Assembly (NCBI RefSeq): GCF_008369915.1
Contig: NZ_VSRN01000001.1
Coordinates: 3,406,501-3,470,500 of the forward strand
Reading direction: 5' to 3'
Length of the DNA: 64,000 bases
DNA from: Dyadobacter sp. UC 10
GTDB lineage: Bacteria; Bacteroidota; Bacteroidia; Cytophagales; Spirosomataceae
Shown: positions 45,584 through 54,941 of the stretch, piece by piece
Layout: each line of letters starts with the position of its first letter
How positions within the stretch are numbered: position 1 is the first letter of the stretch
Made by a program: the position numbers and the translations under genes
The notes under the pieces: generated by a model
The model's input: the letters and a program-made list of their open reading frames with translations, nothing else
Told to the model about the DNA's origin: nothing
Database searches by the model: none

Positions 45584-48559
45584 ATGAACACAAAAAGTTT
45601 TACAAAATTCTTTTTCCTCCTCTCATTCGGACTCACACTATTTGGGGCTCAACTTGTCGCGCAGACACCCTGGAGCGGCAAGCGCGGGAACGAGTGGCTA
45701 GCAGGAAAGTATAACCAGTCGTGGTTGAAAATCGGAGTTAGCAAAAGTGGTTTGTACAAGGTCGCCTTGCCGGCCGCCTTTCAGAATAAGCCTTCGAAGC
45801 TCCATTTATACCGGCGAGGTGTCGAAGTTGATCTCGTAAGCGCTTCCAATACAGAGATCGAATTTTACGGAATACCCAACGACGGAGCTTCTGACGCGTT
45901 GCTTTATCGTTTGCCGACTTCCAGGAAAAATCCGCATTACAGCATTTACTCTGACGAAAGTTCTTACTTCCTGACATTTGACGAGAATGATCGCACGCCA
46001 ACTGTACAGGAAACGCTGGCACCTGATGCAGGAGTCACGCCGCAGGAATCTCACCAATTCACTTTCTTCAAGAAGTTCATGATAGAGCATTCACACATGA
46101 CTTCCTATCCGAGCAGACCTGCAACGTTGAACAGTTATTTTGAGGAAGGTTATCAGGCAACAGGTACAAGGATATTTAACAATAGGCCGCTGGCAACAGT
46201 GAATGCCAAGCCGACCGTTTTTGTATCCAGCTATGTGGCAGAACCTTTCGCTTATGAGGTAAAAGCACGACATGGATCTGCGGCGCCCAAACTACACGTT
46301 CGCTTAAAAGGACGGGGATATCTTTTCAGTGCCAATTCTACTGTCGAGGTTTGGGCAGGGAAGGATGCAGCATCAACGGAATTGAGAGGATCAACCACAG
46401 TTACCGGTTTCCTCGACAAAGAATTTAATGCCGACCTGCTTGACAAGGATATTAACAACGGAGTAGGAATCCTTGGATTTAAATCGACCGGAGGAGCGAC
46501 AGATGGATTTTCAGTGTCTTACTATTCAATTACGTATGATCAGAAAATCGACATGCAGTTACAGAATTCATACGAATTCAACTTCCCGGCTTCCGCGTCG
46601 AATACCAGGTTTACAATCCTGAACCCGCCAGCCGGAACACTCCGTTTTTTGGATATTACGGTTCCTGATAAGCCAAGGATCATCAACGGTAATGCCGCTG
46701 ATATGATGGTATCAAGGAACGGCAGTGCATTTAAACTTTATGTATCGAAAGACGTGACCACTGTGCCTGCCACTGCGGTCACATTTCCGGCTATCTCCCC
46801 TGGCAACCATGATTATCTAATCATTACCAATGAGGCGCTTGCTAATCCAGCTGCAGAATATGCCAAATACCGGAAGGATGATTCTCCCGGTAAAAAATAT
46901 AAACCGCTGGTAATTAAGATAAAGGACATATACAATCAGTTCAACTATGGCGAGCCAAGCCCGGTTGCGATCAGACGTTTTGTTGACTTCATGGTTTCGG
47001 ACAATAACAAGGAAAAGTTTTTGTTGTTGCTTGGCAAGTCGATTACCTTTCATGAGCGTGCTATTCGTGAAATACCTGACGAAGTTCCTACGGTAGGCTT
47101 CCCTGGCTCAGACTTGTTACTGGTTGATGGCCTTGGCGGTGCTCCTGACGACGTTCCTGTGATCCCTTATGGCCGGATCGCTGCTGTCACGGAGCAGCAA
47201 TTGCTCGACTACCTTGCGAAAGTCAAAACCTACGAAAATCAGTCGGAGAACGTGGGATGGCGGAAAAATATCCTGCATGTTAACGGAGGAAAAGGGCAAG
47301 ACCAAATCGAAGAATTTGAAGGGAACTTGACATTTATTGCTACGAGCGCAAAGATCACCAGTGCTCCTTTTTCAGGAAAAGTTATTCCAAAAGTTAAGGA
47401 TAAGACATTGGCTGCCAATGCAATTCAATACATAACGCTCGCTCCGGAAGTCAATGGGACCGCGCCGGGTGTAAATGGCGTAGGAATGATCACCTATTTC
47501 GGGCATGGCGGGGTTGATATTACCGACCTTGATTTCGGATACGTAATGGATGGTAGCAAGAATTACAATAATACGGGCAAGTATCCTGTGCTCTTTTACA
47601 ATGGGTGCGGAGTAAATAACCTGTTCAATAATCGCTTTAACCTTTTTTCCCAGCCGGTAGCCAACCCATCTTTCAGAAGGCCAATGTCACTTGACTGGCT
47701 GCTTGCTCCCGATAAAGGTGCGATCGTAGTATTCGGAAATGACTGGGACGCCTATGCAAGCACTTCCAATGAGTACCTGGACAAACTGTATTTGGAAATA
47801 TTCCCCAAAACAGATGCTGAAAGAAAGACGATCGGAGGGATCGTTCAGGAAGTGGCACTGAAAACGAAGCTTGAAAAGGGCTATGCCTACAGCGATGCCG
47901 TGAATGGAAGGACAGCTGCCTATTACGATTTCGACCGCGCAAACGTTCATCAGATCATTCTCCAAGGTGACCCTGCATTGAGAATCCTGATGACATCGGG
48001 TCCGCTTCCGGTTGAACTTGCCGCTTTCGAAGCGAAGCTGGTGGAATCTAAAAGAGTTGAGCTTAAATGGAGAACGGTTTGGGAAACCAACAACAGCCAC
48101 TTCATCGTTGAAAGAAGCTATAATGCCAAGAATTTCACCGAAGTTGGAATGGTTGAAGGCAAAGGTACCGTAGATCAGGCTTCTGATTACCAATTCTTTG
48201 ACACAGATCCTCTTCCAGCCACAAGTTACTATCGTCTGAAGCAGGTAGATAAAATATCGGTAAAAGATGGAAAGACCGTCGATGGAAAAGTGAGCTACTC
48301 TCAGATAGTGTCTGTGACAAGGCCTGATACGGACATGCTTGTACTTTCTCCTAACCCGACCAGGGACTTTATTAATATTGACCTGGATGCTCCTGTAAAC
48401 ATCCTTCATTGGGATGTTCTGGATCAAAAGGGACATGTCTATAAAAAACAAGGGAAGGGGACCAAGGTCGACCTATCGAACTTGAGCAGCGGCGAATACA
48501 TCATTAAAATCCAGACGGAGAACAATGATGTTTATTTTAGAAAGATTGTGAAGCAATAG
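45584..48559 (+). CDS. C25 (gingipain-like) peptidase, PorU2-like, with T9SS sorting domain
   Basis: 991 residues with signal peptide MNTKSFTKFFFLLSFGLTLF ... LVAQ. Residues ~45-400 are a beta-rich N-terminal region that starts with the motif SWLKIGVSKSGLYKVALP common to PorU-like proteins. The C25 catalytic domain spans ~405-800 and includes IKDIYNQFNYGEPSPVAIRRFVDF, the catalytic His in MITYFGHGG and the catalytic Cys in FYNGCGVNN. After it come an Ig-like segment (LPVELAAFEAKLVESKRVELKW) and a type A T9SS C-terminal domain (LSPNPTRDFINIDLD ... SGEYIIKIQTENNDVYFRKIVKQ). Gingipains are proteases and PorU is the T9SS sortase that cleaves sorting domains. Which role this one has is undecided; having its own sorting domain points to a T9SS client. 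Confidence 0.87.
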   Translation: MNTKSFTKFFFLLSFGLTLFGAQLVAQTPWSGKRGNEWLAGKYNQSWLKIGVSKSGLYKVALPAAFQNKPSKLHLYRRGVEVDLVSASNTEIEFYGIPNDGASDALLYRLPTSRKNPHYSIYSDESSYFLTFDENDRTPTVQETLAPDAGVTPQESHQFTFFKKFMIEHSHMTSYPSRPATLNSYFEEGYQATGTRIFNNRPLATVNAKPTVFVSSYVAEPFAYEVKARHGSAAPKLHVRLKGRGYLFSANSTVEVWAGKDAASTELRGSTTVTGFLDKEFNADLLDKDINNGVGILGFKSTGGATDGFSVSYYSITYDQKIDMQLQNSYEFNFPASASNTRFTILNPPAGTLRFLDITVPDKPRIINGNAADMMVSRNGSAFKLYVSKDVTTVPATAVTFPAISPGNHDYLIITNEALANPAAEYAKYRKDDSPGKKYKPLVIKIKDIYNQFNYGEPSPVAIRRFVDFMVSDNNKEKFLLLLGKSITFHERAIREIPDEVPTVGFPGSDLLLVDGLGGAPDDVPVIPYGRIAAVTEQQLLDYLAKVKTYENQSENVGWRKNILHVNGGKGQDQIEEFEGNLTFIATSAKITSAPFSGKVIPKVKDKTLAANAIQYITLAPEVNGTAPGVNGVGMITYFGHGGVDITDLDFGYVMDGSKNYNNTGKYPVLFYNGCGVNNLFNNRFNLFSQPVANPSFRRPMSLDWLLAPDKGAIVVFGNDWDAYASTSNEYLDKLYLEIFPKTDAERKTIGGIVQEVALKTKLEKGYAYSDAVNGRTAAYYDFDRANVHQIILQGDPALRILMTSGPLPVELAAFEAKLVESKRVELKWRTVWETNNSHFIVERSYNAKNFTEVGMVEGKGTVDQASDYQFFDTDPLPATSYYRLKQVDKISVKDGKTVDGKVSYSQIVSVTRPDTDMLVLSPNPTRDFINIDLDAPVNILHWDVLDQKGHVYKKQGKGTKVDLSNLSSGEYIIKIQTENNDVYFRKIVKQ

Positions 48560-48565
48560 TAAAAG

Positions 48566-48606
48566 AAAAACACGGGTAATGACGTATGTATATTATCCGT
48601 GTTTTT
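48566..48606 (+). terminator. intrinsic terminator between the two C25 genes
   Basis: AAAAACACGGGTAAT ... ATTATCCGTGTTTTT: a 15-bp stem with one G-T pair and an 11-base loop, ending in a T-run. The second peptidase's ATG is only 23 bases further on, so the second gene needs read-through or a promoter inside this hairpin region. Confidence 0.75.
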
Positions 48607-48628
48607 TATTTATCCCTATCCAATATTA

Positions 48629-51600
48629 ATGCACACGACTTTGAAAAATTTTACCTTCTCCATCCTTCTTTGTTTACTTGTTTCAGTTTCTGTTTTTGCG
48701 CAGTGGGGCGCTCCGTATACGAACAACTGGATAGCTTACGGTAAACCATATGTTAAGATTGCAGTTTCCCAGCGGGGAATCCACAAAGTGCCAATGGCTT
48801 CCTTACCGGCTGGCTTTCCCAAAAACCAACCTTCCCTTTTTCAGATCTGGCACAGGGGCAAGCAGGTTTCTATTATCAGTACCGAGAATAATGAGATCAC
48901 CTTTTTCGGTGTGCCAAACGATGGAGCTCTGGATTCGCTTTTGTATCGTCCGATGAGCAGTCGACTAAATCCTTATTTCAGCCATTATTCAGATGAAAGT
49001 GCCTATTTCCTGACGGTCGGAGATGCTGCCGGGAGCCGTGCTGAAAAAGTTAATAAGACCGTTGATCCTGCCGTGAGCCCACTTGCGGCTCATAATGCGA
49101 TTTTATTGAATGTATTCAAGGATGAATATTCGTTCAGCATAGAAAATCCTATTCGTGCAGCATTATACAATAGTTTTTTTGAGTTGGGAGCAAGCAGGAC
49201 CAGTAAGCCAATAATCCGTGGTACACAGGCCAGCTATCCTTTTGAACTAGCTAACAGAAATAAATCATCGGCACAAAAGGTATCTGTAAAAATGCTGATG
49301 CAAGGCCGGAGTAATAACAGCCGCCCCATTGAAATTTATATTGGGAAAGACGCGCAATCGCTCAGGTTGGCAAAAACGATCAACATTTCGGGTTTTTCCG
49401 GTGGTGAGGCGGCTTTTGACATTGAAGCGACAGACGTAGATGCGAATAATAAAGGCGTGTTGGCACTAAAATCAACCAGTACCGAACAGCTTGAAAGATT
49501 TTCACTTGCTTATTACAAGCTGGTTTATCCGTCGGCATTTGTTTGGAAAGGACCGTCGACGACCTTTTCACTTCCCGGAATCAGCGGCCAATATGGACGA
49601 ATCACTATTTCCGGAGCTCCCAATAATGCAACCGTACTCGACATCACAGATCCACACAAAGTAAAATTGATTGCTGGCGACCCTAAAAATCTGATGGTTC
49701 CGGGTAACAGCTCCAAATCTTCAGAACTATTTGTTACAAGCGAATCATTTACTGTTCCCGCAACGAAAATTACATCTGTCGACTTCAAGGCGATCGATAT
49801 CAAAACTGCTAATTATTTCATAGTAACCAGTGCTAACCTGAAGGAAGGGGCGGAGCAATATGCCGCTTACAGGTCGAGCCAGGAGGGTGGAAAATTTAGC
49901 ACTTCGGTTGTACTGATTCAGGATATTTATAATCAATTCAATTTCGGAGAGCCCAGTCCGTTGGCGATACGTAGGTTTGTCGATTTCGCGTTGTCAACTA
50001 CGGATAAAAATAAGTATCTGTTGCTGATGGGTAGATCGATTACCCACGTGGAAAGGATGAAACGCGAGCTGCCGGATGAAGTTCCTACGATAGGTTTCCC
50101 TGGATCTGACTTTCTGCTCGTCGAAGGGTTGGGTGGTGCAGCCCAGGATGTCGGAGCGATTCCCGTTGGTCGGCTGTCTGCTATAACGAATCAGCATGTG
50201 CTGGATTACCTAGAAAAGGTGAAAGATTATGAATCAAATATGGCTGGTGATTATGGCTGGAGAAAGACTTTTCTGCATTTGAATGGAGGAAAGTCAACAT
50301 CTGAAATTAGTCAGCTTAAAAATCAGCTTAGTTCGCTGACACCATTTGTGACAGGCGGTTTTGTTGGAGGCAATGTAAAGGCATTTGCAAAACAACAGGG
50401 TGTACCAGGTGTGGAATCTGTCAATATTACGCCCGAAGTGAACGAAGGTGCGGGCCTCATCACTTATTTTGGCCACGGTTCGATTGAAGTTACGGATCTC
50501 GATATGGGCTACGCTACCGACGTTGGGAGGAGATATAATAATGTAAACAAATACCCGATGATGTATTTCAACGGCTGTGGGGTTGGTAACATTTTCAGCG
50601 CAAGGTTCAATACAAGCCCAACCGCCAGTAATCGCTATCCACTTTCGCTGGATTGGCTTCTAGCGCCGAAGAAAGGTTCTGTGGCAGTGATTGCTAATTC
50701 ATTTGAAAGCTTTGTTTCACCTTCTGCAAAATATCTGGAAATATTATATAAGACGATGTTTACGGATCCGGCCTCAATCAATTTATCGATTGGAAAAATC
50801 ATGATGTCCGTGGCAAGCAAGGTAATGGCCAGCGATCCGGGTGCATACACAATTTCAAATGCCCATCAGTCCCTGTTACAGGGCGACCCAGCATTAAAGC
50901 TGGTGACCGTTGCCAAACCTGACTATTCATTGGATCCTGACGAGAGCCTGATGCTATATTCACAAAGTCAGGACAAGAAAATCGGTGTTTCCGATTCGGT
51001 GAGACTTTCGATCGCAATGCATAATCAGGGACGATATTTTCAGGATGAGAAGGTGCTCGTCAAGATAATTTCGTACTCCAAAACAGGTGAGAAGACACTT
51101 GATAAAATCGTCCCCGCATTTGCTTTGCAGGATACGCTCAATGTCATGTTACTTCGGAACCGTGAGGTTCAGAGGATTGAAGTACGCATTGATCCTCTAA
51201 ATGCAATTGCTGAGCTGGACGAGACTAATAATATAGCGGAGCTGGTAATAGACTGGGATGCCGCCGATAGTGAAAACCGTTATCCGCTGACCAAAGTGAA
51301 AGACCTGATCCCGCCGGTACTGGAAGTCAGGGTCAATCAAGCTCCATTGAAAAATGAAGCTTCGGTATCGCCTGATCCAACATTGGCCTTTATCCTGGAA
51401 GACAACAGGTTGATTTCGCCGGATACATCCTTTATAGATGTTTTTATTAAGTCCTGCTGGGACGATAAATGCGAATATCGTCCCATTAAGTATACAGCCG
51501 GCGATTTCAGAATGGACACCTTGTCAAGCAGGTCTTTTATGATTACGCTGCTGAAGACGGATCTTCCTGAAGGTGAGTACGAGCTATTGGTGAATGTTTC

Positions 51601-51952
51601 AGACGTGGCAGGCAATGCGGGTGTACAACCATATAGTATCAAATTCAAAGTTGAAAATACCGCGGATTCGAGGATGAGTGTTGTCTGTAGCCCCAACCCA
51701 GCCGTGTCTTATATCAAGCTCGAGACGAAGTTGGGCAATTATGGTGACGTTAAATCCTTGAAATATACGATTTATGACCTGACCGGAAAAGTCGTAGCAG
51801 AGGAAACAAAAGAGAATAGAGGTCAAAATTTGCAGGACTGGTATTGGCAGCCAACAGCTGGTCACGCAGGACTTTTTATTTACAAGGTAACGAAGACGAA
51901 TGCCGAAAACGAGTTAGAGGAAGTGCGGGGCAAATTCGTGATTTTAAGATAA
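48629..51952 (+). CDS. second C25 (gingipain-like) peptidase, PorU2-like, with CARDB-like domain and T9SS sorting domain
   Basis: 1107 residues from the ATG at 48629; the GTG at 48599 lies inside the terminator hairpin and is unlikely. Signal peptide MHTTLKNFTFSILLCLLVSV ... VFAQ. The N-terminal region opens with PYVKIAVSQRGIHKVPMASLP. The C25 domain shows IQDIYNQFNFGEPSPLAIRRFVDF, catalytic His in LITYFGHGS and Cys in YFNGCGVGN. Unlike the first paralogue it then has a CARDB-like domain (SLDPDESLMLYSQSQ ... RIDPLNAIAELDETNNIAELVI), a further Ig-like domain, and a T9SS sorting domain (CSPNPAVSYIKLETKLG ... GLFIYKVTKTN). The stop is 3 bases from the convergent lasso cyclase stop. Confidence 0.87.
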   Translation: MHTTLKNFTFSILLCLLVSVSVFAQWGAPYTNNWIAYGKPYVKIAVSQRGIHKVPMASLPAGFPKNQPSLFQIWHRGKQVSIISTENNEITFFGVPNDGALDSLLYRPMSSRLNPYFSHYSDESAYFLTVGDAAGSRAEKVNKTVDPAVSPLAAHNAILLNVFKDEYSFSIENPIRAALYNSFFELGASRTSKPIIRGTQASYPFELANRNKSSAQKVSVKMLMQGRSNNSRPIEIYIGKDAQSLRLAKTINISGFSGGEAAFDIEATDVDANNKGVLALKSTSTEQLERFSLAYYKLVYPSAFVWKGPSTTFSLPGISGQYGRITISGAPNNATVLDITDPHKVKLIAGDPKNLMVPGNSSKSSELFVTSESFTVPATKITSVDFKAIDIKTANYFIVTSANLKEGAEQYAAYRSSQEGGKFSTSVVLIQDIYNQFNFGEPSPLAIRRFVDFALSTTDKNKYLLLMGRSITHVERMKRELPDEVPTIGFPGSDFLLVEGLGGAAQDVGAIPVGRLSAITNQHVLDYLEKVKDYESNMAGDYGWRKTFLHLNGGKSTSEISQLKNQLSSLTPFVTGGFVGGNVKAFAKQQGVPGVESVNITPEVNEGAGLITYFGHGSIEVTDLDMGYATDVGRRYNNVNKYPMMYFNGCGVGNIFSARFNTSPTASNRYPLSLDWLLAPKKGSVAVIANSFESFVSPSAKYLEILYKTMFTDPASINLSIGKIMMSVASKVMASDPGAYTISNAHQSLLQGDPALKLVTVAKPDYSLDPDESLMLYSQSQDKKIGVSDSVRLSIAMHNQGRYFQDEKVLVKIISYSKTGEKTLDKIVPAFALQDTLNVMLLRNREVQRIEVRIDPLNAIAELDETNNIAELVIDWDAADSENRYPLTKVKDLIPPVLEVRVNQAPLKNEASVSPDPTLAFILEDNRLISPDTSFIDVFIKSCWDDKCEYRPIKYTAGDFRMDTLSSRSFMITLLKTDLPEGEYELLVNVSDVAGNAGVQPYSIKFKVENTADSRMSVVCSPNPAVSYIKLETKLGNYGDVKSLKYTIYDLTGKVVAEETKENRGQNLQDWYWQPTAGHAGLFIYKVTKTNAENELEEVRGKFVILR

Positions 51953-51955
51953 ATC

Positions 51956-53905
51956 CTAAACAGCCTGGCTTTTGGTTTTAGCAAGCCATTCAAGCCAGGC
52001 TGCAAGGGAAATTGTCCTGGTAACGTGAAACCACGTTCTTACTTTTTCCGGATAAGGTATTTTCTCATTTTTCAGGATTGCCACCTGCTCATCAAATTTT
52101 CGCCGGTCTACATATTCCCAGACCAATTTGGAGTCATTCAGAAAAGTATTAGCCTGTTCATAAAGCCGCAGGGTAATTTTTTGCCCGTGTGATGAGGCCA
52201 GGGTAGCCTTCGTACTTCTCTCCATCACTTCATCTGAGAGTAACCCTCTCATCGCTTCTCTGAAATGTTCCCGGCCCTTTCCGGAGCCATATTTGATTGC
52301 ATCCGGAACCATCATGCAAATTTCAAAAAGCTGCTTGTCAAGAAAAGGTGCCCGGTTCTTGACGCCGTAATACTGACCCAGAACAAACTGCTGCTCGGTT
52401 GCAGCGACAGCTCGTGGTGTGAACACGTCTTCAAAATATTCACTATACCTAGGGGCCAGATTTCCCCTGAGTGAGCGCGGAAGAACAATACCGGTTTCCT
52501 CAGGCTGGGAAAACTCTAAATATTCATCTCTAAGTACAGATTGGGGAGCGGCTACACTGGTGCGAAGCCAACGTTTCAGGAAATTGCCGAATGCGCGCTT
52601 CAGGAAATAGCTTTTCGAAACGCCCATGGCTTTATTCACCTCATTGTATAAAGCAAAAATATCGGCGACAGGTTTTGACCTGTACTCAGAAAAACGGTGG
52701 TATAAAAAATTTTGTAATACCAGTGCATATTGCTTTTCAAAAGAATAGCTGTCCCAATCAGTATAATTGCTGGCCAGTGAAAAATGAGGAACCCTTTTTT
52801 CGAGATAATGTTGGAGCTCGGCCCATTTTTTTCCCCTGAAAGAATTCTCGAGGATTTCCATTCCGCTTCCAATCACAGAATCGCCCGCACTGCCACGCAA
52901 TAAAATGCCGCATCCCAAATTTCGGGCGTAAGGCATAAGGGATGTAATCAAAGAGGGAGATAGGGTGGATACTTCCGGTTCTCCAAAAAGGGAAGTGTGG
53001 AGCTGGATTAAATTGAAATCTTCATCCGACTGGCGAACTTCATGGTGAATGGACCCGATTTTTTCAACTACGCTGCGGGAGTAATGACTTTCATCCATCT
53101 CTTTGCTGTCGTTCCTGTGATAGAGCGTATGCAATGGGCGAGCCGGATAAATATGCTTAAACATCGTACTTACTGAAGAAGAATCAAGTCCTCCGCTAAG
53201 GTGAGATGCAACCAGCATAGATTCATCGCTAGCCGAAGCTGATACAGATTGCCTGAAAATATCGCGGATAGCTTCAGCAAATTCATCTGGTTTTGAGTAA
53301 GCTGCCCACTTTTCATTTTTAAATGAAACGTGCGGCCTGACCGACTCACTATTTCTTGAAACAGACAAAATGTGGCCAGGAGCCAGATTTCGCACGTTGG
53401 AATAGAAAGATCGGGAATAGTCGCTATTTCGAAGGTCCATTCGAAACCGGTGATAGGTTACTATCATGGAAACGTTTGGAGCCAGATAAGGCTGTAAGGT
53501 TCTGTTGTGGGCTATCGAGGAAAGGCTTGTAGAGAAAAAAAGAAATTCGCCCGGAATATGAATATAATAGAGTGGAATCGTTCCGAAGAGTTCTCTGGCA
53601 AGGTGCAGTTCGTGGTTCTCCTCATCATACCAGATTGCAAGCCTGAGCGTGTTATCTGGGCCGGAAAGTATTTTGTTATATATATCAAAAGAGACAACGT
53701 CAATATGTAAAAAATTACTTATTGACGTTGTCTCTTTTGATAAAAAGACGCTTGATAAGAGAAACCGCTCGTAAGCATCGTTTCCAATATCTTTAGCTCC
53801 CAGAAAAAAAAATTCTGACTTAATTGTTTTGTCAAAAGATGACGTTGGAAATCTGAATTTGTCTTTGAAACTATCCTTAAAGACAACTAAACCTTCGACT
53901 AACAA
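51956..53905 (-). CDS. asparagine-synthetase-like lasso-peptide cyclase
   Basis: Predicted to activate the Asp side chain of the precursor core as an adenylate and close the macrolactam ring (role of McjC/LasC). 649 residues. The N-terminal part (~1-190) is a degenerate glutaminase domain: it keeps LHLARELFGTIPLYYI but begins MLVEG, without the catalytic Cys2, as in lasso cyclases. The synthetase domain has the ATP-binding SGGLDSS (237-243), LLRGSAGDSVIGSG in place of the usual GADELFGG loop, and KNRAPFLD ... GSGKGREHFREAM near the C-terminus. The only start upstream of the conserved part is a TTG at 53905, directly preceded by an in-frame TAA. The precursor gene lies 33 bases upstream on the same strand. 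A perfect 23-bp inverted repeat is embedded at codons ~55-74. A true asparagine synthase is less likely. Confidence 0.82.
   Translation of the reverse strand: MLVEGLVVFKDSFKDKFRFPTSSFDKTIKSEFFFLGAKDIGNDAYERFLLSSVFLSKETTSISNFLHIDVVSFDIYNKILSGPDNTLRLAIWYDEENHELHLARELFGTIPLYYIHIPGEFLFFSTSLSSIAHNRTLQPYLAPNVSMIVTYHRFRMDLRNSDYSRSFYSNVRNLAPGHILSVSRNSESVRPHVSFKNEKWAAYSKPDEFAEAIRDIFRQSVSASASDESMLVASHLSGGLDSSSVSTMFKHIYPARPLHTLYHRNDSKEMDESHYSRSVVEKIGSIHHEVRQSDEDFNLIQLHTSLFGEPEVSTLSPSLITSLMPYARNLGCGILLRGSAGDSVIGSGMEILENSFRGKKWAELQHYLEKRVPHFSLASNYTDWDSYSFEKQYALVLQNFLYHRFSEYRSKPVADIFALYNEVNKAMGVSKSYFLKRAFGNFLKRWLRTSVAAPQSVLRDEYLEFSQPEETGIVLPRSLRGNLAPRYSEYFEDVFTPRAVAATEQQFVLGQYYGVKNRAPFLDKQLFEICMMVPDAIKYGSGKGREHFREAMRGLLSDEVMERSTKATLASSHGQKITLRLYEQANTFLNDSKLVWEYVDRRKFDEQVAILKNEKIPYPEKVRTWFHVTRTISLAAWLEWLAKTKSQAV
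51961..52002. terminator. weak hairpin at the convergent ends of the C25 and cyclase genes
   Basis: CAGCCTGGCTT (51961-51971) pairs perfectly with AAGCCAGGCTG (51992-52002). It lies 8 bases after the C25 stop and overlaps the last codons of the cyclase. There is no clear T-run, so it is only a possible terminator for the plus strand. Confidence 0.3.
53683..53742. repeat. perfect 23-bp inverted repeat inside the cyclase gene
   Basis: Arms 53683-53705 and 53720-53742 are exact reverse complements, separated by 14 bases; the total is 60 bp, or 20 codons. Translated on the minus strand the two arms read SKETTSI and HIDVVSFD. The hairpin begins about 160 bases after the cyclase start. The repeat is seen directly; any function is inferred. 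Confidence 0.9.
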
Positions 53906-53938
53906 TTAGGAGCTTTTTAAATTTTACCGACTATAATC

Positions 53939-54091
53939 TCAACCATCCGTTTTGAAATCATCAGGAGGAGTAAGATCAGGTAGGCTGCCCAGTTTACCTC
54001 TTGTCAGGTTCCGTACAGAGCCCATTTTAACAAGTACCGGCTTACGATAAGACTTTTTCGTCTGTGTAGAGTGCGATGTCACTGTTCTCAT
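53939..54091 (-). CDS. lasso-peptide precursor (leader plus predicted 19-residue core)
   Basis: A 50-codon gene, ATG at 54091, TGA at 53941-53939. The leader contains SYRKPVLVKMGSVRNLTR: Tyr15, Pro18 and Leu20 match the lasso leader motif YxxPxL bound by RRE proteins. Gly24 follows at the usual spacing, and Thr30 is the penultimate leader residue needed by the leader peptidase. Cleavage after Arg31 gives the core GKLGSLPDLTPPDDFKTDG. Its Gly1 and Asp8 are at the right distance for an eight-residue macrolactam ring, leaving an 11-residue tail. The core has no Cys, so this would be a class II lasso peptide. By hand addition the cyclised core is about 1954.0 Da monoisotopic. The cyclase follows after 33 bases and a good promoter lies upstream. 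No peptidase or RRE gene is nearby. The family assignment is by motif only. Confidence 0.82.
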   Translation of the reverse strand: MRTVTSHSTQTKKSYRKPVLVKMGSVRNLTRGKLGSLPDLTPPDDFKTDG

Positions 54092-54129
54092 TTGTTTTTG
54101 ATTAGATGATTATATACCAGTATCCGACG

Positions 54130-54160
54130 TAAAATTAGCGACATAAATTTAATATGCAAA
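54130..54160 (-). promoter_or_regulatory. candidate promoter of the lasso precursor/cyclase unit
   Basis: On the minus strand TTTG (54160-54157), a 19-base spacer, then TAATTTTA (54137-54130), one base off the Bacteroidota TAnnTTTG box. The predicted transcript start near 54123 leaves a leader of about 32 bases before the precursor ATG. Confidence 0.5.
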
Positions 54161-54224: not shown

Positions 54225-54941
54225 CTATTCAACTCCGTGCTCAATAATTGTCCGCGCCTTTCGTACCCCCGAATCAATCTTTCCTGAACCGATACAAGCA
54301 TCATCCTGACAGTATTCAAAAGATGTCTGATTGTCCGAAATGAGGCCTACACCCAGTCCGTATTGTTTTATCCCAATATATCGGTTGATTACTGAACTGT
54401 CATTACGTTCAACCACGCGCAAAGTTCTGTCGAAAGTTTGCGACCCTACACTTCCTGGCATATTAACGTCTTCATAATGATAATTTTCCGCATCGCGGTT
54501 ATTGTAAGTATTTCCATTCCAGGATATTCTGGTGTCGACAGGGAAAACCATTGAAAAGAAGGTCTGGTTGTCGATGTTGGTCAGAATCTTGTCCGGGTAC
54601 CTGTGCACTTTATACTCCTTTGCCTTTGTCCAGTATTCCGTTGCACTGCTTCTGGTCGACCGCGAAAATGTGTAGGTAAAAACGCCGCTATCATCCTCGC
54701 TGACGTTTTCCACTTTGTCTTTTTCTTGCCAGGTTTTGATCACTGGATTTGCCTGGCCGGTAGAATAGACTTCCTCTTTGACATCATAGACGGCGAACCT
54801 GCCAATTTCAAGGGGGAAGTATTCATACACGTCGACAGGATCAGTGTTTTTCGGGTTGCATCCATCCAGTGCAAAAAGCAAAAGTGAAGTGGCGAAAAGC
54901 TTTCGAATAGCAGATTTACAGATGTGTGTAAATGTGTTCAT
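54225..54941 (-). CDS. lipoprotein of unknown function upstream of the lasso locus
   Basis: 238 residues from the ATG at 54941 (MNTFTHICKSAIRKLFATSL, then LLFALDGC with Cys28 in the lipobox). An upstream in-frame ATG at 54989 overlaps the udk stop by 4 bases but would give an unusually long signal region. The mature part is beta-rich and Tyr/Asp-rich (DVYEYFPLEIGRFAVYDVKEEVYSTGQANPVIKTWQEKD; later VINRYIGIKQYGLGVGLIS). It resembles the general type of small Bacteroidota lipoproteins opening with 'yfPl..G....Y.V'. No named function. A 133-base gap with a promoter separates it from the precursor. Confidence 0.72.
   Translation of the reverse strand: MNTFTHICKSAIRKLFATSLLLFALDGCNPKNTDPVDVYEYFPLEIGRFAVYDVKEEVYSTGQANPVIKTWQEKDKVENVSEDDSGVFTYTFSRSTRSSATEYWTKAKEYKVHRYPDKILTNIDNQTFFSMVFPVDTRISWNGNTYNNRDAENYHYEDVNMPGSVGSQTFDRTLRVVERNDSSVINRYIGIKQYGLGVGLISDNQTSFEYCQDDACIGSGKIDSGVRKARTIIEHGVE

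Follow-up and report, generated by a model that had tools for sequence, protein, structure and literature searches.

How could a lasso peptide be made from a locus that encodes a precursor and a cyclase and none of the enzymes that process the leader? The question is raised by a 64,000-nucleotide stretch of the genome of Dyadobacter sp. UC 10 (contig NZ_VSRN01000001.1, positions 3,406,501 to 3,470,500; hereafter, the window), in which a small precursor gene (A) lies next to the gene for an asparagine-synthetase-like cyclase (C). Genome mining for lasso peptides relies on the A, B, and C genes occurring together; therefore, loci such as this A-C pair look broken or incomplete. Clustering of A, B, and C is usual rather than defining, and it is absent here. 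The window very probably holds one half of a lasso pathway that is split over two conserved chromosomal places, with the genes for a leader-binding protein (B1), a leader peptidase (B2), a kinase-like protein (K), and a nucleotidyltransferase-type enzyme (N) located 2.35 Mb away from the A-C pair.

The precursor and the cyclase

The two genes of the window that carry the argument are the following:

53939-54091, minus strand: lasso precursor A, 50 codons, with a 31-residue leader and a 19-residue core (NF033521, lasso_leader_L3)
51956-53905, minus strand: lasso cyclase C, 649 residues, asparagine-synthetase-like (PF00733, 108.9 bits); the TTG start is uncertain

The leader of precursor A is MRTVTSHSTQTKKSYRKPVLVKMGSVRNLTR and its core is GKLGSLPDLTPPDDFKTDG. 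A preliminary description of this DNA had reported a 50-codon gene with a YxxPxL motif, a Gly, a Thr at position -2, and Gly1 and Asp8 in the core, and all of these are present: Y(-17), P(-14), and L(-12) make up YxxPxL, G(-8) stands four residues past the L of that motif, and T(-2) precedes a core with Gly1 and Asp8, between which the ring is predicted to close. The mass of the cyclized core, earlier put near 1954.0 Da, was recomputed as 1953.968 Da. The precursor scores 26.4 bits against the NCBIfam model NF033521 (cut-off 19) and is the only match over the cut-off in the 6.93-Mb genome; the same model gave no match over the cut-off in 14 control genomes. On sequence grounds, the open reading frame with its motifs is considered to be more than chance.

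The sample comprised 200 genomes of the family, 34 of them from Dyadobacter, the genome of the window included. The cyclase at the syntenic place has a precursor of the same kind alongside in all 34 Dyadobacter genomes, among which the leader residues Y-17, P-14, L-12, G-8, L-3, and T-2 are invariant. Gly1 and Asp8 occur together in 30 of the 34 cores and in 24 of the 28 unique ones, against a mean of 0.79 and a maximum of 5 in 2000 shuffles. Because many cores keep a fixed distance from K to D, a Lys1-Asp7 register was considered for Dyadobacter, but it was rejected: Lys is missing from that place in the cores of G142 and G187 (GGTGGSSDNF...), and the Gly1-Asp8 register suits the cores of G112 and G139, where Lys-Asp7 does not. 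Among Spirosoma and its kin, the T(-2) rule gives Lys1 and Asp7 at four loci (L154, L157, L184, and L186), which would imply either an unusual first residue or a different cut site.

Thirty-three bases separate the two open reading frames, and cyclase C lacks the glutaminase cysteine, Cys2, and retains SGGLDSSS, all as described earlier; the motif in its general form, SGGxDSSS, which we take to be catalytic, is kept in the Dyadobacter cyclases. Cyclase C scores 163.6 bits against the lasso cyclase model NF033535 and 115.9 bits against the asparagine synthase model TIGR01536, and the AsnB-like protein of the same genome ranks the two models in the reverse order (210.8 and 470.9 bits). A tree was built from 53 chosen rows, including 15 of the 34 syntenic Dyadobacter cyclases, by a quick search with support from the Shimodaira-Hasegawa-like approximate likelihood-ratio test (SH-aLRT) and without bootstrap. 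The grouping with true asparagine synthases that the preliminary description had considered is not what the tree gives; instead, cyclase C falls inside a lasso clade of 43 rows (SH-aLRT 100), which includes ten cyclases from loci of other phyla with B1 and/or B2 in the stretch examined. Outside the clade are E. coli AsnB, the AsnB-like protein of the genome, and eight low-scoring rows; four other low-scoring rows fall inside it. Based on these placements, cyclase C is read as being of the lasso kind and not an asparagine synthase. Second cyclase-like proteins without Cys2, also inside the lasso clade and low-scoring against cyclase C, were seen in G139 (L250) and G181 (L251). Read from the first start codon, the syntenic cyclase frame spans 634-664 residues in 32 of the 34 Dyadobacter genomes and is shorter in G196 (581) and G184 (527).

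The distant operon and the split layout

As had been noticed earlier, the window contains neither B1 nor B2; all matches of the genome to PF13471 (Transglut_core3) and PF05402 lie elsewhere. A search of the whole genome found the two together in one operon, in which B1 is of the type of a ribosomally synthesized and post-translationally modified peptide (RiPP) recognition element (RRE):

C1:1101138-1103915: operon B1-B2-K-N, four genes, 2.35 Mb from the A-C pair
Within C1:1101138-1103915: B1, leader-binding RRE, 88 residues (PF05402, PqqD, 66 bits, cut-off 23.4)
Within C1:1101138-1103915: B2, leader peptidase, 146 residues (NF033537, 84.3 bits, cut-off 33)
Within C1:1101138-1103915: K, HprK-like kinase, 308 residues, named by place and motif only
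Within C1:1101138-1103915: N, NTP_transf_5 enzyme, 379 residues (PF14907, 150.2 bits, cut-off 31.2)

B2 is the single PF13471 match of the genome, and B1 is the one of its two PF05402 matches that exceeds the cut-off; the other (L004, G000:C1:6446016) is a weak PqqD-like match of 22.6 bits, below the cut-off. Against PF07475, K reaches 19.5 bits, under the cut-off of 33.3; its Walker A-like motif, GxPGxGKS, is kept in all 34 Dyadobacter genomes, across which the GDxD residues G122, D123, and D125 of N are invariant. C85 and H119 of B2 are kept as well, and these residues and motifs of B2, K, and N are presumably catalytic. There is no room for a precursor at the borders of the operon: one flanking gene is 53 bp away, and the other overlaps the operon by 20 bp. 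A hidden precursor was sought by a motif scan of the B loci and rejected, the one match lying inside the N region of L107 and being judged spurious. A second, divergent set was observed in D. sediminis (L134, G145), with K-, B1-, and N-like proteins of 22-28% identity and a weak B2 match.

Both halves hold their places throughout the genus. The genes B1-B2-K-N are contiguous in all 34 Dyadobacter genomes, beside an aldose-epimerase-like gene and ftsH in all 34 and an aldehyde dehydrogenase gene and a saccharopine-dehydrogenase-like gene in 30. Among these names, ftsH and the piperidine-6-carboxylate-type aldehyde dehydrogenase exceed their cut-offs and the epimerase lies below; saccharopine-dehydrogenase-like is our own reading, as is the gene name uridine kinase (PF00485, 131 bits). 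No C or A match was found near the B operon in any of the 34 genomes (a stretch of 8-8.5 kb each, 17 kb here), and no B2 lies near a cyclase at any of the 38 cyclase loci of these genomes. For 16 of the 38, the cyclase and B2 share a contig at distances of 558,853-2,577,245 bp, and for 22 they lie on different contigs; these distance counts omit a fragmentary B2 of G129 and seven B2 rows under the cut-off. The two-locus layout is common to all Dyadobacter sampled, and the comparison of synteny proposed in the preliminary description thus places A-C and B1-B2-K-N each at a conserved site.

In other genera of the family, B2, counted with the same omissions, lies within 10 kb of 25 of the 48 lasso-type cyclases. 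Profiles for B1 and B2 found one or both at 43 of 46 loci outside the family and at none of 24 named Dyadobacter cyclase loci, a stretch of up to 8 kb on each side being searched in both cases. Unlinked B operons stand beside the same aldehyde dehydrogenase and ftsH genes in the genera coded g4, g12 (Arundinibacter), and g18; therefore, the split may be older than Dyadobacter. Spirosoma offers further arrangements: in Spirosoma validum (L183, G136), even B1 and B2 are unlinked, the sole B1 adjoining one cyclase (C22:902337) and the sole B2 adjoining another (C22:279663) some 622 kb away, and S. endophyticum (L185) has B1 without B2 in the stretch examined.

Probable cooperation of the two halves

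Across the 200 genomes, B2 is present in 74 of the 75 with a lasso-type cyclase, 26 genomes have B2 alone, and 99 have neither (the B2 of G129 being included in this count); the Fisher p-value of 8e-31 is too small, as the genomes are related. By this co-occurrence and by elimination, the halves are taken to belong together, and action in trans is the most likely mode for the B proteins. This was one of the options raised in the preliminary description, and the operon 2.35 Mb away, in a layout found genus-wide in the sample, speaks well for it. The same description had considered that the genome might hold no B1 or B2 and that the precursor might not be conserved; both proteins exist, and the precursor is conserved. 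Its suggestion of a degenerate locus is unlikely given the length of the cyclase frame in 32 of the 34 genomes and the constrained leader and core.

Another suggestion, that the B proteins are shared with another cluster, does not suit this genome, in which a single precursor exceeds the leader_L3 cut-off; it does suit three relatives. Three A-C cassettes with differing cores occur in D. bucti (G190), and two occur in each of Dyadobacter sp. Leaf189 (G096) and D. crusticola (G157). All three genomes possess a single B1 and a single B2, so that one B set appears to serve several cassettes. In the tree, the extra cyclases of D. bucti join cyclases from its congeners, and the extra ones of Leaf189 and D. 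crusticola group with Spirosoma; because of these groupings, A-C cassettes look as though they were transferred without the B genes. Because the cores vary whereas the leader hardly does, a single B1-B2-K-N set could serve any A-C cassette, extra ones such as those of D. bucti included. MacB/FtsX permease genes adjoin three of the four extra Dyadobacter cassettes (L174, L189, and L194) and are possible exporters, although such genes are perhaps common in these genomes.

Several points weigh against a split pathway. It is predicted from gene content, and no exporter is assigned. Four of the 34 Dyadobacter cores do not fit Gly1-Asp8. The co-occurrence counts treat kindred genomes as independent. 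Halves that cooperate might show covarying divergence, but partial Mantel tests, run on the 30 of 34 genomes whose fetched stretch contained every one of the three control genes, yielded nothing clearly above the housekeeping controls. The core gave 0.317 with N, 0.281 with B1, 0.214 with B2, and 0.044 with K, its values for N and B1 lying below the 0.334 of the control sdh; the cyclase gave 0.276 with B1, slightly above the highest control (sdh, 0.239), and 0.161 with N, 0.091 with K, and 0.063 with B2. Furthermore, B1 scores 64.4 bits against the lasso model NF033536 (cut-off 80), and K scores 31.2 bits against the HprK-related model TIGR04352 (cut-off 200). The score of cyclase C falls short of the NF033535 cut-off of 525 and is exceeded by that of the AsnB-like protein. 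The Spirosoma cyclase L183, which has B1 alongside, likewise misses this cut-off with 306.7 bits, and the cut-off thus seems narrower than the class of lasso cyclases. Finally, the cyclase of G184, one of the 34 syntenic ones, may be truncated at its start.

These points bear differently on the alternatives. That the A-C locus is a decaying remnant, with B1-B2-K-N kept for a different substrate, would agree with the rapid divergence of the cyclase (across 30 genomes, its mean pairwise difference is 0.654, and the values of three control genes span 0.149-0.290), with the lack of clear covariation above control, and with the perhaps truncated frame of G184. However, precursor and cyclase frames persist at the syntenic locus in all 34 genomes, the cyclase at 634-664 residues in 32 of them, the leader positions do not vary and the pattern of the core is constrained, and the genome offers the B operon no other leader_L3 match over the cut-off; we regard decay as improbable. 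It is also quite improbable that another protease, for example, the C25 peptidase encoded next door, cuts the leader while B1 and B2 serve something different, even though 34 or more of the 38 Dyadobacter loci have a C25 gene no more than 8 kb from the cyclase. The T9SS sorting domain (T9SS, type IX secretion system) of that peptidase suggests action beyond the cytoplasm, at a point later than the ATP-dependent cyclase step, and Thr(-2) and YxxPxL, which are processing recognition elements in known systems according to PMC10368454, are kept in all 34 genomes. Least credible, to the point of being nearly dismissed, is an asparagine synthetase paralogue without a lasso role beside an incidental small open reading frame: the strong PF00733 match and the NF033535 score under the cut-off would fit it, but the SH-aLRT support of 100 for a clade that holds cyclase C and leaves out both AsnB proteins would not, nor would the flip in model ranking between cyclase C (163.6 against 115.9 bits for the lasso and asparagine synthase models) and the AsnB-like protein (470.9 for asparagine synthase against 210.8).

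Candidate companion genes, proposed mechanism, and known systems

The proposed two-locus pathway has further candidate members in the window. The preliminary description called the locus minimal, which is misleading: the syntenic A and C genes adjoin a PorU2-type C25 peptidase gene in all 34 Dyadobacter genomes and, in 32 of them, a homologue of a putative lipoprotein gene as well. These candidate companions are as follows:

45584-48559, plus strand: second, tandem PorU2-type C25 peptidase (NF052324, 583.1 bits, cut-off 450), the weaker candidate
48599-51952, plus strand: PorU2-type C25 peptidase with a T9SS sorting domain (NF052324, 870.8 bits, cut-off 450)
54225-54941, minus strand: putative lipoprotein, about 238 residues, with a Cys after a hydrophobic N-terminus and a half-barrel YmcC/Lol-like model

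Two C25 genes stand in tandem at all 20 named Dyadobacter loci of the syntenic A-C kind. Adjacency of C25 genes was assessed for 134 cyclase rows, leaving out second pieces of one gene (G022, G014, G126, and G034) and four weak rows (G147, G006, G186, and G049). At least 34 of 38 Dyadobacter cyclases and 41 or more of 48 lasso-type cyclases from other genera have a C25 homologue within 8 kb, but for the lower-scoring cyclase matches the counts are at least 4 of 19 and at least 3 of 29. Among rows from cyclase-bearing genomes, a lipoprotein homologue lies within the same distance of at least 32 of the 38 Dyadobacter and at least 28 of the 48 other lasso-type cyclases. The lipoprotein matches no Pfam family over threshold. 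Its predicted structure is a confident one (predicted local distance difference test score of 89.4) and aligns best with 3fzx (Z 13.6, root-mean-square deviation of 4.7 over 174 residues), followed by hits with Z of 12.7 and 9.1, and Foldseek TM-scores are low (0.35 for the best row). The model seems to resemble YmcC-like half-barrels and, less so, Lol proteins, a likeness of fold and not of function.

Whether these genes have any part in the pathway is almost an even matter, and we give a little less than half of our credence to their being old neighbors of the A-C site, unrelated to lasso biosynthesis. The Dyadobacter place is inherited by descent, which makes its loci approximately one event, and homologues of the lipoprotein occur in 144 of the 200 genomes, many of them without a lasso-type cyclase, so that a lasso-only gene was rejected. 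G064 and G184 keep the syntenic A-C pair without the lipoprotein, and, among the matches listed, no companion of either kind lies within 8 kb of the four extra Dyadobacter cassettes; hence, the pair is not needed everywhere. Conversely, the C25-lipoprotein pair also accompanies lasso cyclases that differ in type and gene order, in genera such as Spirosoma and Arundinibacter, the latter with the pair next to three distinct cyclases. Among the matches listed, no lipoprotein homologue lies within 8 kb of any of 15 control C25 genes, which come from 10 genomes that lack a strong cyclase match. These controls were picked by hand, the two genes of G100 are uninformative, and five of the 10 genomes have a weak asparagine-synthetase match. 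At L244 (g17), a lipoprotein homologue was observed near a Cys2-bearing asparagine synthetase, with a C25 gene about 12.6 kb off. As a guess, the companions could serve in release, sequestration, or immunity, or the peptidase could be a target. We found no literature on C25 or lipoprotein companions of lasso cyclases, and none that links a lasso peptide with type IX secretion or names PorU2, subscription journals being mostly outside the search.

The gene content suggests a possible order of events. In the cytoplasm, B1 would meet the precursor by binding YxxPxL of the leader and present it to K, N, and the peptidase B2. K would probably phosphorylate the conserved Ser of the ring, and N may add a group onto that phosphate. 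The ring Ser is a likelier target of K than a C-terminal Ser because all 28 unique Dyadobacter cores have a Gly-Ser with Ser at core position 4-6, and only five of them have a terminal Ser. B2 would cut after the residue following Thr(-2), and C would then activate Asp8 and join it to Gly1, closing the ring around the tail. Any part played by the lipoprotein and the PorU2-type peptidase would probably follow export, in the envelope. Taken as a whole, we tentatively propose, for Dyadobacter and its family, a plug-in, two-part lasso system linked to the type IX secretion envelope, in which a fixed B1-B2-K-N operon processes and tailors any A-C cassette at hand, A-C cassettes pass between species without B, and the peptide is handed by the lipoprotein to the PorU2-type C25 peptidase or acts on it, for example, as an inhibitor or cargo; we hold this wider scheme to be rather doubtful. 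The Dyadobacter sample presents a complete lasso gene set in two pieces, and one processing and tailoring set with several cyclases provides a natural test of the tolerance of B1, B2, K, and N for foreign cores. Additionally, the companions may open the question of the role of lasso peptides in Bacteroidota. No literature on a split lasso pathway was found in a search that left subscription journals mostly outside.

The gene set itself has precedents. According to PMC8498205, paeninodin and pseudomycoidin are clustered lasso pathways with a kinase and a nucleotidyltransferase gene, and paeninodin-type kinases modify a C-terminal Ser. Dyadobacter shares with them the precursor, the split B1 and B2, the cyclase C, the HPr-kinase homologue K, and the nucleotidyltransferase N; it differs in that A-C and B1-B2-K-N are two fixed loci, 0.56-2.58 Mb apart, and in the rarity of cores ending in Ser (5 of 28 unique ones). 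The characterized bsf system of Bradymonas (PMC10368454) has a kinase that modifies a ring Ser (Ser3) and a B1 that assists this kinase as well as the peptidase; such dual aid would account for the sharing of one operon by B1, B2, K, and N. It resembles Dyadobacter in the spacing from Y(-17) to L(-12) and in its Gly1-Asp8 ring, but it is a gene cluster with Ile(-2), whereas Dyadobacter has Thr(-2) and a Gly-Ser with Ser at position 4-6. Within the family, the Spirosoma loci L184 and L186 have the same gene set, including the C25 peptidase and the lipoprotein; there, however, C and N-K-B2-B1-A adjoin, and residue 1 is Lys by the T(-2) rule, with Asp at position 7. Some Spirosoma, like Dyadobacter, have B2 far from the cyclase. 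An analogous separation is known for unclustered lanthipeptide proteases, one of which (PMC8960859) is encoded 550,898 bp from its precursor. The likeness lies in a RiPP protease encoded far from the precursor; the difference is that the RRE, the peptidase, and two tailoring-type enzymes of Dyadobacter form a conserved operon of their own.

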